64,000 bases of DNA, taken from the NCBI GenBank assembly GCA_028704945.1, contig JAQWEL010000001.1, forward strand, positions 62,001-126,000, read 5' to 3'. This document shows positions 3,661-47,453 of this stretch, one piece after another (position 1 is the first letter of the stretch; the number at the start of each line of letters is the position of its first letter). Made by a program: the position numbers and the translations under genes. The notes under the pieces were generated by a model. That model did not search any database. It was not told the DNA's origin and worked only from the letters and a program-made list of their open reading frames with translations. Source of the DNA: Patescibacteria group bacterium. Its GTDB lineage: Bacteria > Patescibacteriota > Patescibacteriia > Patescibacteriales > Patescibacteriaceae.

Positions 3661-3812
3661 GGTATACTCCATTAAGAAAATTGATAAGAGGTTATTTATA
3701 AGAAGTTTTGAAAAATAGTAACTTAATGACAAGTAAATTTTTTTGTGGCGTTTTATTGGTTTGTTTTTATATTAATAGTCAAGACGCCTTACTTGTGTGT
3801 TTATCTGTTTAT

Positions 3813-28876: not shown

Positions 28877-28946
28877 AGTAGTTTTTAGTTATTGAAAATA
28901 CACTTTAATAAAAAAGTCTTTTTTAAGCAAGTTTATTTTAGCATAT

Positions 28947-28975
28947 TTGCTCCTCTTTTTAAATTATGGTATTAT
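28947..28975 (+). promoter_or_regulatory. candidate promoter of the pilin-like array
   Basis: TTGCTC (28947-28952), 17-base spacer, TATTAT (28970-28975), about 35 bases before the leader ORF at 29011. Confidence 0.5.
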
Positions 28976-29010
28976 TGAATTAATAATTAGACAATTTAAA
29001 CAAGAAAGCA

Positions 29011-29067
29011 ATGCTTTCAACAAAGAAAGGGGGTGAAATTGAATTAACAGTTCAAAAATTTATATGA
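29011..29067 (+). CDS. possible 18-residue leader ORF overlapping the first pilin-like gene
   Basis: The ORF MLSTKKGGEIELTVQKFI ends in a stop that overlaps the next start (ATGA). Its own ATG lies in a small hairpin (GAAAGC/GCTTTC, 29004-29018). Inside it is AAGAAAGGGGGTGA, nearly the full complement of the usual 16S rRNA 3' end, yet 28 bases before the gene it should serve. Either it is a coupled leader peptide or the site acts as a ribosome standby site. Translation of the short ORF is unproven. Confidence 0.3.
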   Translation: MLSTKKGGEIELTVQKFI

Positions 29068-29525
29068 TTAAAGAAAAATTAGTTAAATACACTTCTATTG
29101 GTTTAATGACTTTAAGCCTTTTTGGCGCCGGCGCATTAGTCAATAATGTTCACGCTGAAGATGTCGGAACCGGTAAAGTAGATTTGTGGAGCGACCCTTA
29201 TTCAGATGCGGAAATTGGTTATAACGCTTTTACCGAAATTGGTATGGGTAAACGTGATCCAAGAAGAATTATTGCTGCCGCTATTAATACGTTATTAGGC
29301 TTTTTAGGCGTAATAGCTATAATTTTGATTATGGCCGGTGGTTTTAAGTGGATGACTGCTCAAGGTAATGACGCTAAGGTAGACGCCGCCAGGAAATTAA
29401 TGGTTTCAGGCGTAGTCGGCTTATTAATAGTCTTAGCCTCTTTTGCTGTTTCGATTTATGTCACCCGTGTTCTTTTGGGTATTACTAGTGCGGAATCACA
29501 AAACACTTACCAGAACGCAGACTAA
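29064..29525 (+). CDS. pilin-like/TrbC-VirB2-like small exported protein 1
   Basis: First of six paralogues (153 residues). An N-terminal signal helix ends near VHA-ED. A spacer of about 45 residues precedes two membrane helices (about 76-96 and 115-136) separated by the shared motif KWMTAQGNDAKVDAARKL. The layout recalls VirB2/TrbC major pilins, and the family is widespread in CPR genomes as putative T4SS-pilin-like proteins. Repeated copies in one operon suggest alternative subunits of a surface fibre or pore. It is followed by a 95-base gap with strong hairpins. Confidence 0.7.
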   Translation: MIKEKLVKYTSIGLMTLSLFGAGALVNNVHAEDVGTGKVDLWSDPYSDAEIGYNAFTEIGMGKRDPRRIIAAAINTLLGFLGVIAIILIMAGGFKWMTAQGNDAKVDAARKLMVSGVVGLLIVLASFAVSIYVTRVLLGITSAESQNTYQNAD

Positions 29526-29560
29526 GGATATTTTGGGATCCTACAAATGTCTTTATTTCA

Positions 29561-29626
29561 GATGTTTCCAATGAAAAATTGGAAGCATCTCTATTCTCTT
29601 AATCCGTTGAGAGAATAGAGATGCTT
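29561..29626 (+). promoter_or_regulatory. two mutually exclusive hairpins before pilin-like gene 2
   Basis: Hairpin 1 pairs GATGTTTCCAAT (29561-29572) with ATTGGAAGCATC (29578-29589). Hairpin 2 pairs AAGCATCTCTATTCTCT (29583-29599) perfectly with 29610-29626. Both need bases 29583-29589, so they cannot coexist. Hairpin 2 covers the ATG at 29621 and ends one base before the ATG at 29627. Confidence 0.6.
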
Positions 29627-30007
29627 ATGAGCTTTAGAAGAATAATTGTTTTTATTATTTTTACTGCCACATTGTTATCGACGGCTGTTTTTGGCGTTCA
29701 GGCAAAAAGTGATTACGGAGCGGATCAGACTAATACTGTTGCTGGCGATTTAATTCAATTGCGCGGTTCAGCCTCTGAAACTGTGCGTCAAATTACTGGA
29801 GAAATGGTGGGAAGACTTTTGTCTTTTTTGGGTATAGTTTTTTTGTTGTTAATTTTGATAGCTGGATTTATGTGGATGACAGCGGCTGGTAATGATGTTA
29901 AAGCTCAAAAAGCAAGAAAGGTGATGACCGCAGCGGTTATCGGTTTGATTATAATTTCCGCCGCTTATGCTATTACTGCTTTTATTGGTGATAGTCTACC
30001 TCAATAA
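29621..30007 (+). CDS. pilin-like/TrbC-VirB2-like small exported protein 2
   Basis: Second paralogue, 126-128 residues; ATG 29621 and ATG 29627 (MSFRRIIVF) are both possible. Signal helix (cleavage likely near VQA-KS), then helix 2 near 67-88, the motif FMWMTAAGNDVKAQKARKVM, and a final helix with IGLIIISAAYAITAF. The close match of the motif to its neighbours shows recent family duplication. Its start lies in the arm of a perfect 17-bp hairpin, so translation may be controlled. Confidence 0.7.
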   Translation: MLMSFRRIIVFIIFTATLLSTAVFGVQAKSDYGADQTNTVAGDLIQLRGSASETVRQITGEMVGRLLSFLGIVFLLLILIAGFMWMTAAGNDVKAQKARKVMTAAVIGLIIISAAYAITAFIGDSLPQ

Positions 30008-30009
30008 AT

Positions 30010-30351
30010 ATGTTTAAAAAATATTTATTAGCGTTAATTATTGGTTTCGGCTTACCTTGGCTGACGAGAGCAGAAAGGTTGGGCGGTTTAGATACTACTT
30101 CTGGAAAAATGGGCGTACCTAAAAAAAATATTTTAGAATTTACCAGTTTGATTGGCACGGCTATGACTTTTTTAGGTGTATTATTTTTGGGGTTGGCTCT
30201 TTACGCTGGTTTTTTGTGGATGACTGCTCAAGGTAATGAAGCTAAAGTTACTAAAGCTAAAGGTATTTTAATTATGGCCGTAATTGGTATTATAATAGTT
30301 ACATCAGCCTTCGCCATTACCGCGTTTCTTGGAGATAGTTTAGGTAAATAA
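30010..30351 (+). CDS. pilin-like/TrbC-VirB2-like small exported protein 3
   Basis: Third and shortest paralogue (113 residues). Signal helix KKYLLALIIGFGLPW, a short spacer with only about 25 residues, helix near 50-68, the shared FLWMTAQGNEAKVTKAKGIL motif and the last helix ending FAITAFLGDSLGK. The start lies two bases after the previous stop, so it is cotranslated. The C-terminal end (GDSL) is shared with paralogue 2, which suggests those two are closest relatives. Confidence 0.7.
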   Translation: MFKKYLLALIIGFGLPWLTRAERLGGLDTTSGKMGVPKKNILEFTSLIGTAMTFLGVLFLGLALYAGFLWMTAQGNEAKVTKAKGILIMAVIGIIIVTSAFAITAFLGDSLGK

Positions 30352-30362
30352 GTTTAATAGAT

Positions 30363-30743
30363 ATGTTTAGAAAACTTGCTAAATTAAATTTTATTTTTTT
30401 GTCATGGTGTATTGCGCTAAAAGCCAAGGCGGCAGGTTGGGGTGATGCCTTTGGTTCAAATTTAACCGACGTTGCTGGCCGAGCCGGGTTAAATACTAAG
30501 ACCAGGACAGTTGAGCCTACTATTCAAAATGCTATTAATGTCGGCCTGTCATTTTTAGGTATTATTTTTTTAGCACTCGCCTTATATGCCGGTTATAATT
30601 GGATGACAGCTCAAGGAGACAAAGCTAAAGTTGACAAAGCTCAGAAAATATTAGTTACAGCTGTTATCGGTTTAATTATTATCGTAGCGGTTTACGCGAT
30701 TACCTTCTTTGTTATGTCGCGTTTTACTAAAGAACTCGCTTAA
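30363..30743 (+). CDS. pilin-like/TrbC-VirB2-like small exported protein 4
   Basis: Fourth paralogue (126 residues). Signal region FIFLSWCIALKAKAAG. Helix FLGIIFLALALYAGYNWMT runs into the motif AQGDKAKVDKAQKILVTAVI, then IIIVAVYAITFFV. The helix and motif region is almost identical in paralogue 5, even at DNA level (around 30560-30700 and 30990-31130), pointing to a recent duplication or gene conversion. The spacer before helix 2 differs, so the exposed part varies while the membrane part is kept. Confidence 0.7.
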   Translation: MFRKLAKLNFIFLSWCIALKAKAAGWGDAFGSNLTDVAGRAGLNTKTRTVEPTIQNAINVGLSFLGIIFLALALYAGYNWMTAQGDKAKVDKAQKILVTAVIGLIIIVAVYAITFFVMSRFTKELA

Positions 30744-30744
30744 T

Positions 30745-31185
30745 ATGTTTAAACTTTTTGCAAAAAAAATAATTGTTACAACTTTTCTGCTTGGGCTGGC
30801 TTTGCCGGTTTTAGCTGCCGATGTTCCGGCTGATGGAAATAGTAGCACTTCTACTAATTCACAAGGAGCAGTAAAGGCTACTGCTTTTGATCGCTTAAAA
30901 TCAGTTACTGATAAAAATTGGAATGAAAATACTAATGAAGATACGGCCGTAGAATATGCTGGCTATTTAATAACAGTTTTTTTATCCTTGCTTGGTATTA
31001 TTTTTTTAGCGCTTGCTTTATATGCCGGTTACAATTGGATGACAGCTCAAGGAGACAAAGCTAAAGTTGATAAAGCTCAGAAAATATTAACAGCCGCAAT
31101 CATAGGGTTAATTATTATCGTAGCGGTTTACGCTCTCTGGCGATTTTTATTCGCTCGAGTTGTTTCAATCTCGCCTGATTTATAA
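30745..31185 (+). CDS. pilin-like/TrbC-VirB2-like small exported protein 5
   Basis: Fifth paralogue, about 146 residues from ATG 30745 (MFKLFAKKI), one base after the previous stop; an earlier in-frame ATG would overlap gene 4 for no reason. Signal helix ends near VLA-AD. The spacer is Ser/Thr/Asn-rich. The GYNWMTAQGDKAKVDKAQKI motif is shared with paralogue 4. Final helix followed by a short tail, RVVSISPDL. Confidence 0.7.
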   Translation: MFKLFAKKIIVTTFLLGLALPVLAADVPADGNSSTSTNSQGAVKATAFDRLKSVTDKNWNENTNEDTAVEYAGYLITVFLSLLGIIFLALALYAGYNWMTAQGDKAKVDKAQKILTAAIIGLIIIVAVYALWRFLFARVVSISPDL

Positions 31186-31187
31186 TT

Positions 31188-31604
31188 ATGAAAAAATATT
31201 TTTTTAAATTATTAAGCCTTTTGCCGGTTATCGGCCTTATTGTTAGCGCCCCAGTTTCTTTCGCTTTAACTAATGATCTGTTGCATCAAGATGTCTTGGA
31301 TAAAATGGATGAAGAATCAATGCGTTTAGCCGAACAAGGCTATAGTCCGGATACGACTGAAGATACTTTAATGGAATATATTGCCAACGTCATTAATGTT
31401 TTTTTAGGTTTATTAGCCACTATTTTTGTGATTTTAATAGTTTACGCCGGTTATAATTGGATGACAGCTCATGGTGAAAAAGCTAAAATTGATAAAGCGC
31501 AAAATATTATTCGAGCCGCTATAATTGGTTTGATAATTACCGTAGCCGCTTTCGCGATTACTTGGTGGGTTTTTGCCAGGATGCCTGATAATCAGGTCAG
31601 ATAA
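31188..31604 (+). CDS. pilin-like/TrbC-VirB2-like small exported protein 6
   Basis: Last paralogue (138 residues). Signal helix FKLLSLLPVIGLIVSAPVSF, then an acidic spacer with EDTLMEYIANVINVF (similar to EDTAVEYAGYLITVF in paralogue 5). The motif is YNWMTAHGEKAKIDKAQNII, and the final helix ends ITWWVFARMP. It closes the array and is followed by a weak terminator at 31622. Array order and near-zero gaps from genes 2 to 6 show one operon. Confidence 0.7.
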   Translation: MKKYFFKLLSLLPVIGLIVSAPVSFALTNDLLHQDVLDKMDEESMRLAEQGYSPDTTEDTLMEYIANVINVFLGLLATIFVILIVYAGYNWMTAHGEKAKIDKAQNIIRAAIIGLIITVAAFAITWWVFARMPDNQVR

Positions 31605-31621
31605 AATTTTTTAAAATAAAA

Positions 31622-31652
31622 ATAACTCCCGATTTTTGGTCGAGAGTTTTTT
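31622..31652. terminator. terminator between the array and the lipoprotein gene
   Basis: AACTC near 31623 pairs with GAGTT near 31645 around an AT-rich loop with further CGA/TCG pairing; T run follows on the plus strand. Confidence 0.5.
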
Positions 31653-31665
31653 GTTTGTCGAATTT

Positions 31666-32319
31666 TTAATTTTTGGTGAAATTAATCTTTGGGTCTTTAC
31701 GATCGAGAATAACGTTTTTCCAGTAGTGGCTATTAGAAGATCTGCTTCCAGAAGTGTCCCACCTAAGATTATAAACTCCTTCTTGGATAGAGAAATATTT
31801 TGTTTCCCCGGAGCGTAAAGTAATCGGCGCGTTGATGAAATTTTTTCTGGATTGTTTGATTTCACGAAGAATAATGTCGGAACCGCTGGAGTTAGTTAAA
31901 GTAACTTTTATCTTTCCGGCTGTAGTACCGTAGGAGCTTCCATTGCTTTGTCTATTACTGACGACAACTGATGAAAATTCCAGTTGATTGATAAGGTCTT
32001 GCCACTTTTGAGCTTCTTCGGCGGTACTGGCTGTTTGTCTTTTTTTTGCCCAAATTTCGAAAGTTTTCATATCTTCCTTATTTTTGAAGGTAAGAAATCT
32101 TCTGGTTTCTTTTTCGACCACCACCAATGTTTTGCTTTTTTCTTGGCGATCCATTATTTGGAAGTTGCCCATGGCGCTTGATTGGCCACCGACATCTTCA
32201 ACCACGATATTGCCGTCTTCGTCTTTGGTATGACGGACATAAGTTTGAGGCATGCAGCCGCTTAATAAGATTGCAATTATTATTGCAAAGCTGACAATGC
32301 TTGATAATGACTTTTTCAT
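31666..32319 (-). CDS. putative lipoprotein
   Basis: 217 residues. A type II signal peptide ends in the lipobox LLSGC (Cys22), so the protein should be lipid-anchored on the outer face of the membrane. A helical segment with EKETRRFLTFKNKEDMKTFE follows, then a Ser/Asn/Gly-rich linker (NRQSNGSSYGTT). The C-terminal beta-rich domain (KIKVTLTNSSGSDIILREI, GVYNLRWDTSG) resembles small beta-sandwich modules. AGGTGA precedes the ATG. No family recognised. It has its own TTGACT promoter of the type shared with the next gene. Confidence 0.65.
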   Translation of the reverse strand: MKKSLSSIVSFAIIIAILLSGCMPQTYVRHTKDEDGNIVVEDVGGQSSAMGNFQIMDRQEKSKTLVVVEKETRRFLTFKNKEDMKTFEIWAKKRQTASTAEEAQKWQDLINQLEFSSVVVSNRQSNGSSYGTTAGKIKVTLTNSSGSDIILREIKQSRKNFINAPITLRSGETKYFSIQEGVYNLRWDTSGSRSSNSHYWKNVILDRKDPKINFTKN

Positions 32320-45869: not shown

Positions 45870-47165
45870 TTAGTGGTGATCATTTAAATATTTTTCGATA
45901 TTATAAGTTCCCATGTTTTCAGCTTCAAAATAACCCATAAAAGCGGCCTTAGCCAACTTGTCTTCTTTGATCATGTCATCAAGCCATTCGTGAGCGAAAT
46001 CCCAATTTAACGCGTCAAGGCCGGCTCCGACTGAAATTAACCAATCACGGTTGGAAAATTCTTGCGCTCCGACCGGTTCAGTCATTATGATTGGCAAACC
46101 CAGCCCAGCATAAAAGGATAATTCTGATGGTTTGGTAATCAGTATATCGGCCTCGCGTATAGTTTTGTTAAAAACGGTAAAATAGGCGGGTTTAGTTTTT
46201 TGATATAATATCGAAACCTCGTCTTTGTCGAGGCCAAGTTTTTCAATCTCTTGTTCAAAAGTATTTTTAATATTTTCTCTTACGCCAGCTACTAAGACAA
46301 GTGAATATTTTTTTTGTTTTAAATCATTAGTAATTGATTTTAGAAATCTAATGGCAATTTCAGCTTGAGCACCAGCCCCGCCAATGGCAAAAACGATTTT
46401 TAATGGTCGGTTAAGCTTATTTTTATTAGGTTCTGGCAATTCTTCGGCCAGCAAACCAGCGTATTTATTGCGAAAACTATTATTCTTATCAAGTCTCGCC
46501 AAACGATTAGCTAAGTCTGCTCGCAAGATGGGTTTGGTTTCTCCGCCAATGTTTTCTTTTGGTAAAGGAAAACCGGTTAGAATTATGTTTTGTCTATTAA
46601 CGCCATATTCAGCTAAACGGTTGGCCGCGCGCCGCGTTGAAGCGAAGTATTTAGTTTTGGATTTTTTAGGATTAATCGGCGCCCAAAAGCGACTGACGTC
46701 AGTATCACAGATAACGCAATAAATCTGATTTTTAAATTTCCAGTATTCACCGAAGTAAACTGGCACAGGGAAAGTTGCGACAATAGGCAAATTGTTTTTA
46801 TTTAATTGTTTAATCAAATTACGGCCGACACCTTGTTTTATTTTTTTAAAAAAGAAATGTTGTTGCAGGGTTTTTCGTCTCAAATCTTTAACCGGATAGT
46901 AACTGGGTATTTGCTGAAAGCGATCCATTACCCAAAAAATGGCTTCGCCCAAGAGCGGTATTTTTTTTAAATAAGAAACATATTCATAAGAGCCGCGTTG
47001 CTGTTTCCAAACATTTTTTTCCCATTCAGATATGCCCTTATATTCATTGGCGTTAATAACTCCTTCAAGGCTGATGTCAACCAAGGGGTCAGCGGCGCGT
47101 TGATGCCCGTAGCCCATATCCACTGCAATCAAATTAACTTTGGTTATTTTTTTATTTTCCTCCAT
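45870..47165 (-). CDS. MurG/MGDG-synthase-like glycosyltransferase
   Basis: About 431 residues from ATG 47165 (MEENKKITKVN). An earlier in-frame ATG at 47189 must be rejected because its codons 2-4 (TGC TAT AAT) are the -10 box. A GT-B-like layout is seen: the N-terminal strand VNLIAVDMGYGHQRAADPL, the C-terminal nucleotide-sugar half with IVFAIGGAGAQAEIAIRFL, and ADILITKPSELSFYAGLGLPIIMTEPVGAQEFSNRDWL, which resembles the donor-binding region of MurG and diacylglycerol glycosyltransferases. First gene of the operon with the transporter and hydrolase. Donor and acceptor unknown. Confidence 0.65.
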   Translation of the reverse strand: MEENKKITKVNLIAVDMGYGHQRAADPLVDISLEGVINANEYKGISEWEKNVWKQQRGSYEYVSYLKKIPLLGEAIFWVMDRFQQIPSYYPVKDLRRKTLQQHFFFKKIKQGVGRNLIKQLNKNNLPIVATFPVPVYFGEYWKFKNQIYCVICDTDVSRFWAPINPKKSKTKYFASTRRAANRLAEYGVNRQNIILTGFPLPKENIGGETKPILRADLANRLARLDKNNSFRNKYAGLLAEELPEPNKNKLNRPLKIVFAIGGAGAQAEIAIRFLKSITNDLKQKKYSLVLVAGVRENIKNTFEQEIEKLGLDKDEVSILYQKTKPAYFTVFNKTIREADILITKPSELSFYAGLGLPIIMTEPVGAQEFSNRDWLISVGAGLDALNWDFAHEWLDDMIKEDKLAKAAFMGYFEAENMGTYNIEKYLNDHH

Positions 47166-47177
47166 AATTTTTTCTTT

Positions 47178-47188
47178 ATTATAGCACA
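47178..47188 (-). promoter_or_regulatory. extended -10 promoter of the glycosyltransferase operon
   Basis: TGTGCTATAAT on the minus strand; the transcript should start about 6 bases before the ATG at 47165. Confidence 0.7.
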
Positions 47189-47189
47189 A

Positions 47190-47453
47190 ATTTTATTAGA
47201 ATAAAAAACATTTTTATTAATAGTTTAAAACTATTATTGTTACTCCAAACCGCCAAGGGCGGAGAGGAATCGCTCTTGATGTAAAAAAGGATAATAAATC
47301 AACTAAAGTTTATTAAAAGTATTTACTGCAAAGAGGGATCTCTTTCTGCGTTCAAGATGACAACAAGGGGGGCTAGAAATAAAAAAGAGATATTTGTATT
47401 TATAAAATTGATTTTATTGCTTTTAGATGCTAATCTGAGATAAAAATAAGCAT
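47190..47453. other. 264-base gap with degenerate repeat-like sequence
   Basis: No gene is seen. It holds CCGCC/GGCGG (47250-47263), and two partial copies of a GAGGAATC..TTGATG / GAGGGATC..AAGATG sequence (47260-47282 and 47333-47361) that look like remnants of a dispersed repeat. Confidence 0.35.

Follow-up and report, generated by a model that had tools for sequence, protein, structure and literature searches.

For Patescibacteria, 441 arrays of VirB2-like pilin genes with 2–11 genes each have been reported, and one pilin array is reported as essential for epibiotic growth (PMC12102498); the genes considered here form the same kind of array, and the words "intergenic" and "hairpin" are absent from the main text of that paper. 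How the ratios of the pilins are set in such minimal genomes is the question addressed below. Among described RNA structures, the closest are the 3′-protective hairpins of the malE-malF type (also puf), which, like the element of this locus, are stable, lack a U tract and stand within an operon after the cistron wanted in excess; in a survey of E. coli, 26 of 34 protected 3′ ends were reported as a stable hairpin without a U tract (PMC5927463). The pilin operon papBA of E. coli likewise has an intercistronic hairpin (PMC5927463), and terminator/antiterminator and start-codon switches likewise have one strand common to two hairpins. A literature search among open-licence PMC texts, judged mostly from the listed entries, showed no prior description of the element.

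Hairpins in the gap between the first two pilin genes

The window, that is, the whole analysed stretch of 64,000 nt, contains six tandem pilin-like genes at positions 29064–31604, the first of which is referred to as the lead pilin (gene 1; Table 1). All six matched the Pfam family PF18895 (T4SS_pilin) with E-values from 1e-3 to 1e-7, the curated cut-off being passed by gene 3 only, and gene 1 was aligned with the gene-1 proteins of relatives (16-sequence alignment). The gap between genes 1 and 2 is 95 nt, and the gaps among genes 2–6 are 2, 11, 1 and 2 nt; genes 3–6 start close to the previous stop, as the initial annotation had noted, and the gap between genes 1 and 2 is the only sizeable one in the array. 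The Shine-Dalgarno-like sequence AAAGGGGGTGA is 27 nt from the ATG of gene 1 (29026–29064), and in four relatives (L077, L079, L128 and L136) it stands directly before the ATG, a difference that would fit an insertion of about 20 nt in the window. Gene-1-like pilin domains (56–57% identity) were also detected elsewhere in the same genome, at G000:C2:44402-44749 and 47003-47413, within open frames of 894 and 1854 aa, and similar large frames are present in many relatives.

Table 1. Positions of the pilin genes and of the RNA features around the gap between genes 1 and 2 in the window.
Feature	Position	Strand	Basis
Shine-Dalgarno-like AAAGGGGGTGA, upstream of pilin gene 1	29026–29036	+	Sequence; relatives L077, L079, L128, L136
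Pilin gene 1 (lead pilin, 153 aa)	29064–29525	+	19.6 bits to PF18895, a weak match below the cut-off of 26.6
H0, weak hairpin starting at the gene 1 stop codon	29523–29555	+	−8.8 kcal/mol
H1, hairpin of 13 pairs with 5-nt loop	29560–29590	+	−16.8 kcal/mol alone
Shared arm (H1 3′ arm and base of H2 5′ arm)	29583–29590	+	Folding
H2, hairpin of 20 pairs with 4-nt loop	29583–29626	+	−28.1 kcal/mol alone
Pilin gene 2 (ATG 29621 or 29627)	29621–30007	+	PF18895, 23.9 bits (cut-off 26.6)
Pilin gene 3	30010–30351	+	PF18895, 32.2 bits, exceeds cut-off
Pilin gene 4	30363–30743	+	PF18895
Pilin gene 5	30745–31185	+	PF18895
Pilin gene 6	31188–31604	+	PF18895

The segment 29540–29680 folds at −43.2 kcal/mol, compared with a mean of −21.65 kcal/mol (sd 3.26) for 200 dinucleotide shuffles, none of which folded as well (z = −6.6). 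The arms of H1 are AGATGTTTCCAAT and ATTGGAAGCATCT, and those of H2 are 20 nt long and 95% complementary. When the window sequence was folded with its flanks, the minimum was full H2 with a short H1 (−39.9 kcal/mol) and the alternative was full H1 with a short H2 (−37.8 kcal/mol), so that the H2-full state was favoured by about 2 kcal/mol and the outer H1 pairs had probabilities of 0.02–0.09. The two candidate start codons of gene 2 are in the same frame, and the bases of the upstream one (29621–29623) had an unpaired probability of 0.01–0.07. The weak hairpin H0, overlooked by the initial annotation, has a counterpart in the nearest relative, which belongs to the same genus (G001), and none in part of the order.

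Much of what had been proposed for this gap is consistent with these data: H1 and H2 are both present and overlap in a common arm, ATG 29621 is buried in the 3′ arm of H2 while ATG 29627 abuts it, and no Shine-Dalgarno site for gene 2 is visible in the window sequence. The second stem, described as a perfect one of 17 bp, does exist; its length requires correction, since it folds as 20 bp. Loss of both stems was not seen in the close relatives, as G001 and a member of the same family (G012) retain the stems and the shared arm although the letters differ.

Distribution in the order and selection on the RNA

With gene 1 as the query, matches were obtained in 100 of the 111 genomes of the order, and 80 fetched regions, together with the window and L033, gave 82 regions with 76 arrays of at least two pilin ORFs. 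In a separate search, the named loci belonged mostly to Falkowbacteria, Parcubacteria, Magasanikbacteria, Uhrbacteria and Komeilibacteria. The first gap measured 45–399 nt in 64 of the 76 arrays, and 51 of 337 later gaps were of that size. A gap of 45–399 nt was present in 70 arrays, and the minimum-energy fold contained two neighbouring hairpins in 61; a size filter (H1 of at least 7 pairs, H2 of 14–26) left 47 elements, which are the basis of the sharing, Shine-Dalgarno and distance counts given below. Among the arrays left out in these steps are several in which an element is visible but shorter or differently folded (L082, L083, L096) and some that have no similar structure (L092, L154), and the assignments of L110, L112, L122 and L147 among the 47 are doubtful. 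It should be noted that the elements share descent, and the counts are therefore not independent trials. In nearly all 47 elements the hairpin pair spans about 65–85 nt despite widely differing letters (for the shared arm, CATCT in the window, GCGTT in G001, CGCGT in G012 and TCAC in G088), and the first paired base of the gap lies at a median of 3 nt past the stop of the upstream gene.

In the 27-sequence alignment of elements (A2), 18 of the 19 consensus pairs of H2 had at least one two-sided change that preserved pairing. When G-T and A-C mismatches were scored alike, G-U outnumbered A-C on the pilin strand by 152 to 59, a ratio that may be somewhat inflated by the folding program that chose the gaps, as it allows G-U; under symmetric scoring, G-U was in the majority in 49 gaps and A-C in 4. 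Such an excess is expected when selection acts on the pilin-strand RNA. The RNAalifold analysis of A2 covers H2 only, because the 5′ arms of H1 were out of register; variation in H1 was tabulated by anchoring, with pairs preselected by folding, so that nothing beyond the variety of pair types can be read from it. Apart from one aligned T column, A2 contained no invariant loop or core, and thus no conserved ligand-binding core of the riboswitch kind. Rfam 15 gave no match on the element in the window (28900–31700) or in the loci of eight relatives, the matches with the lowest E-values lying elsewhere in those loci or far below the gathering score. Thus, the paired-hairpin element is a real RNA-level structure whose shape is kept more than its letters across the order, and it sits in the gap after the lead pilin as two adjacent hairpins, often with a shared arm.

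A covariance model built from alignment A2 matched 60 of the 111 genomes of the order (E ≤ 0.01), most of them at a single element locus. In 51 fetched loci, 26 of which had provided training sequences, all 80 matches at this threshold (the window's own match excluded) lay within 140 nt past a pilin stop. Another 18 matches were outside all fetched regions; 17 of these sit 3–63 nt past a pilin stop, and the remaining one has its start at the edge of a contig and a pilin downstream. None of the 13 genomes of the window's own family was matched in the whole-genome run, which used stricter filters, although the same model does score the window, G001, G012, G006 and G007 when applied to loci. Across the 380 genomes of the class, 24 were matched at E ≤ 0.001, of which 21 belong to the order; the three out-of-order matches (28–29 bits) had no nearby pilin, and two of them resembled 16S rRNA by eye.

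Several loci differ from this pattern. L153 (G109:C46, 3002–10127) has 13 pilin ORFs and no usual element after gene 1, and elsewhere in its family pilin ORFs reach 244 residues. In L075 (G002:C10), the place of H1 and H2 in the first gap is taken by one long hairpin built of repeated CAGATTTCAGATGTCGGATT-like units. In the first gaps of L088, L089, L094 and L099, long inverted-repeat inserts that resemble small mobile repeats (for example, GTCATTGCG...CGCAATGAC) adjoin the element. Another order of the class, whose named members include Komeilibacteria, has a letter-conserved single hairpin with the strand TAGTCTAGACTATAGTAGG after a Shine-Dalgarno-bearing pilin (L295 at 3676–3736, L301, L302, L303, L307, L314 and L322). 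A model of this hairpin (R2, seven sequences) matched 17 of the 380 class genomes; the motif was found 15–35 nt past the pilin stop in 15 of the 17 loci, and the pattern had no match in the other two.

The gene served by the element and alternative readings

Of the 47 lead pilins, 38 are preceded by a Shine-Dalgarno match of at least 5; the same holds for 4 of the 47 second pilins and for 6 of the 196 pilins further along. Among gaps of at least 50 nt in the order, 58 of 67 were structured (z ≤ −3) after Shine-Dalgarno-bearing pilins and 22 of 43 after other genes, and the next gene also bore a Shine-Dalgarno site in 7 of the 58. In other orders of the class the proportions were 13 of 14 and 6 of 25, with 11 of 25 gaps after Shine-Dalgarno-bearing pilins falling outside the tested range of 50–350 nt; beyond the class, they were 1 of 3 and 1 of 4, a sample too small to be used. 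In 78 named loci, which overlap the first set, structured gaps made up 48 of 52 after Shine-Dalgarno-bearing pilins and 27 of 67 otherwise. The window, G001 and G012 run counter to this association, given the distant site in the window and the absence of a visible one in the two relatives.

The distance from the end of H2 to the next ATG had a median of 21 nt and a range of −3 to 205 nt in the 47 elements, being at least 10 nt in 39, with H2 ending within 2 nt of the ATG in only two, and copies of the element follow further lead-pilin genes in L085, L091, L118 and G061. The steady neighbour of the element is thus the end of the lead pilin, and its placement at the start of gene 2 in the initial annotation is not supported across the order. 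Two facts limit this argument: the element of most arrays precedes gene 2 as well, so that position alone cannot separate the roles, and the window is itself a weak case, with its distant Shine-Dalgarno site and with H2 overlapping an ATG.

The likeliest reading of these data, and on balance a probable one, is that the element at the 3′ end of the lead-pilin cistron (29523–29626) protects and insulates the lead-pilin mRNA and thereby sets pilin ratios. According to this model, endonucleolytic cleavage would occur downstream of H2, after which the hairpins would block 3′-to-5′ exonucleases and stabilise the lead-pilin message, while H2 would also restrict the access of ribosomes to the next cistron; combined with the strong Shine-Dalgarno sites of many lead pilins, this protection would yield a high ratio of the lead pilin to pilins 2–6. 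Through the shared arm, H1 and H2 would be able to trade basal pairs without a single-stranded gap, and H2 opened from the 3′ side would close H1, presumably forming a two-stage barrier. A stable hairpin just after the presumably favoured cistron and, in 44 of 47 elements, the lack of a uridine tract after H2 are both observed; against this reading, a shared arm is not in itself required for protection.

The less likely of the two live options, and an unlikely one, is translational control of gene 2, in which H2 would hide the start and full H1 would open the base of H2 and expose it, the exchange being biased by ribosomes ending gene 1, by an RNA-binding protein or by a ligand. Arm sharing counts in its favour. 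Sharing of at least 3 nt was found in 28 of the 47 elements, compared with 3.1 or 2.6 expected when one flank was shuffled at a time, and sharing of at least 5 nt in 18, compared with 0.3 expected; in roughly two fifths of the elements, contiguous sharing is almost absent. The 28 sharing elements contain 23 different shared sequences, which indicates a concerted change of three strands. The energies of the two branch states were within 2 kcal/mol in 23 of the 28, and the H2-full state was favoured in the remaining five. The buried ATG of the window and the start of pairing close to the terminating ribosome also agree with such a switch. However, near-equal energies are partly automatic, because one shared strand pairs with two like strands; the H2–ATG distance, with an occluded start codon in the window, is not kept in relatives; copies follow other lead pilins; and A2 has no aptamer-like conserved loop. 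Moreover, a truncated-transcript test, which is looser in that every base of the H2 arm paired upstream is counted in transcripts ending short of the 3′ arm, gave 287 such bases against a shuffled-flank mean of 291.5 (maximum 353), and this lack of excess argues against a general upstream-pairing switch. Of the "bistable" character ascribed to the gap, arm sharing far above chance and near-equal branches are supported, whereas two mutually exclusive folds are not: the cores of both hairpins are present in either state, the exchange being confined to the basal pairs of the shared arm.

A further reading, speculative and unlikely in our estimation, regards the element as a new class of RNA, a dynamic three-strand exchange junction that would either report ribosome termination at the lead pilin or halt nucleases in two steps and so set pilin ratios. 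A strand X′ would pair with an upstream X (as H1) or a downstream X (as H2) at near-equal energy, and pairing would be kept while all three strands change. If this were true, the junction would set the pilin ratios of a secretion system that epibiotic Patescibacteria may use for host contact.

A partial transcription terminator or attenuator between genes 1 and 2 is improbable. A loose consensus scan did call H1 followed by CTATTCTCTT terminator-like, but 44 of the 47 elements have no TTTT-like U tract after H2 (at least 4 T in 8 nt, found in three; some of the tails spanned fewer than 8 nt, the ATG being reached first), and many have A-rich sequence there, so that H2 is not the hairpin followed by a U tract of an intrinsic terminator. 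Even less probable is that the element is processed to yield a small RNA or is a target of RNase III: the stems are long and perfect and most matched genomes have one locus, but loops and arms vary freely in sequence. A DNA palindrome acting as a mobile element, recombination site or protein-binding site, suggested by the inverted repeats and by the long repeat-like inserts in some gaps (L088, L089, L094), can hardly be upheld against the strand-asymmetric mismatches, the higher RNA-model score of the pilin strand in nearly all palindromic pairs and the lack of the dispersed copies of a REP-like or mobile palindrome, as the checked matches in the order sit in pilin arrays and the window's genome has one site, its only other weak copy being the antisense of that same site.

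Significance and comparison with known systems

In most arrays examined, the lead pilin is marked by this RNA, which hints at the identity of the major subunit, can serve as a guide when searching for such arrays and opens the question of pilin ratios to testing. A design with a shared arm that survives changes in all three strands is unusual, even if its role is mRNA protection only.

Compared with terminator/antiterminator and start-codon switches, both hairpins of the element persist, there is no U tract, and the distance to the ATG is not constant. In papBA, the major pilin is reported to lie downstream of the cleaved site (PMC5927463), whereas here the lead pilin lies upstream of the element. 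Protection of the malE-malF and puf type is predicted here by analogy with those operons. The element differs from that type in that it is kept across an order with changing letters and consists of two hairpins of steady size that share an arm and are tied to one gene family.
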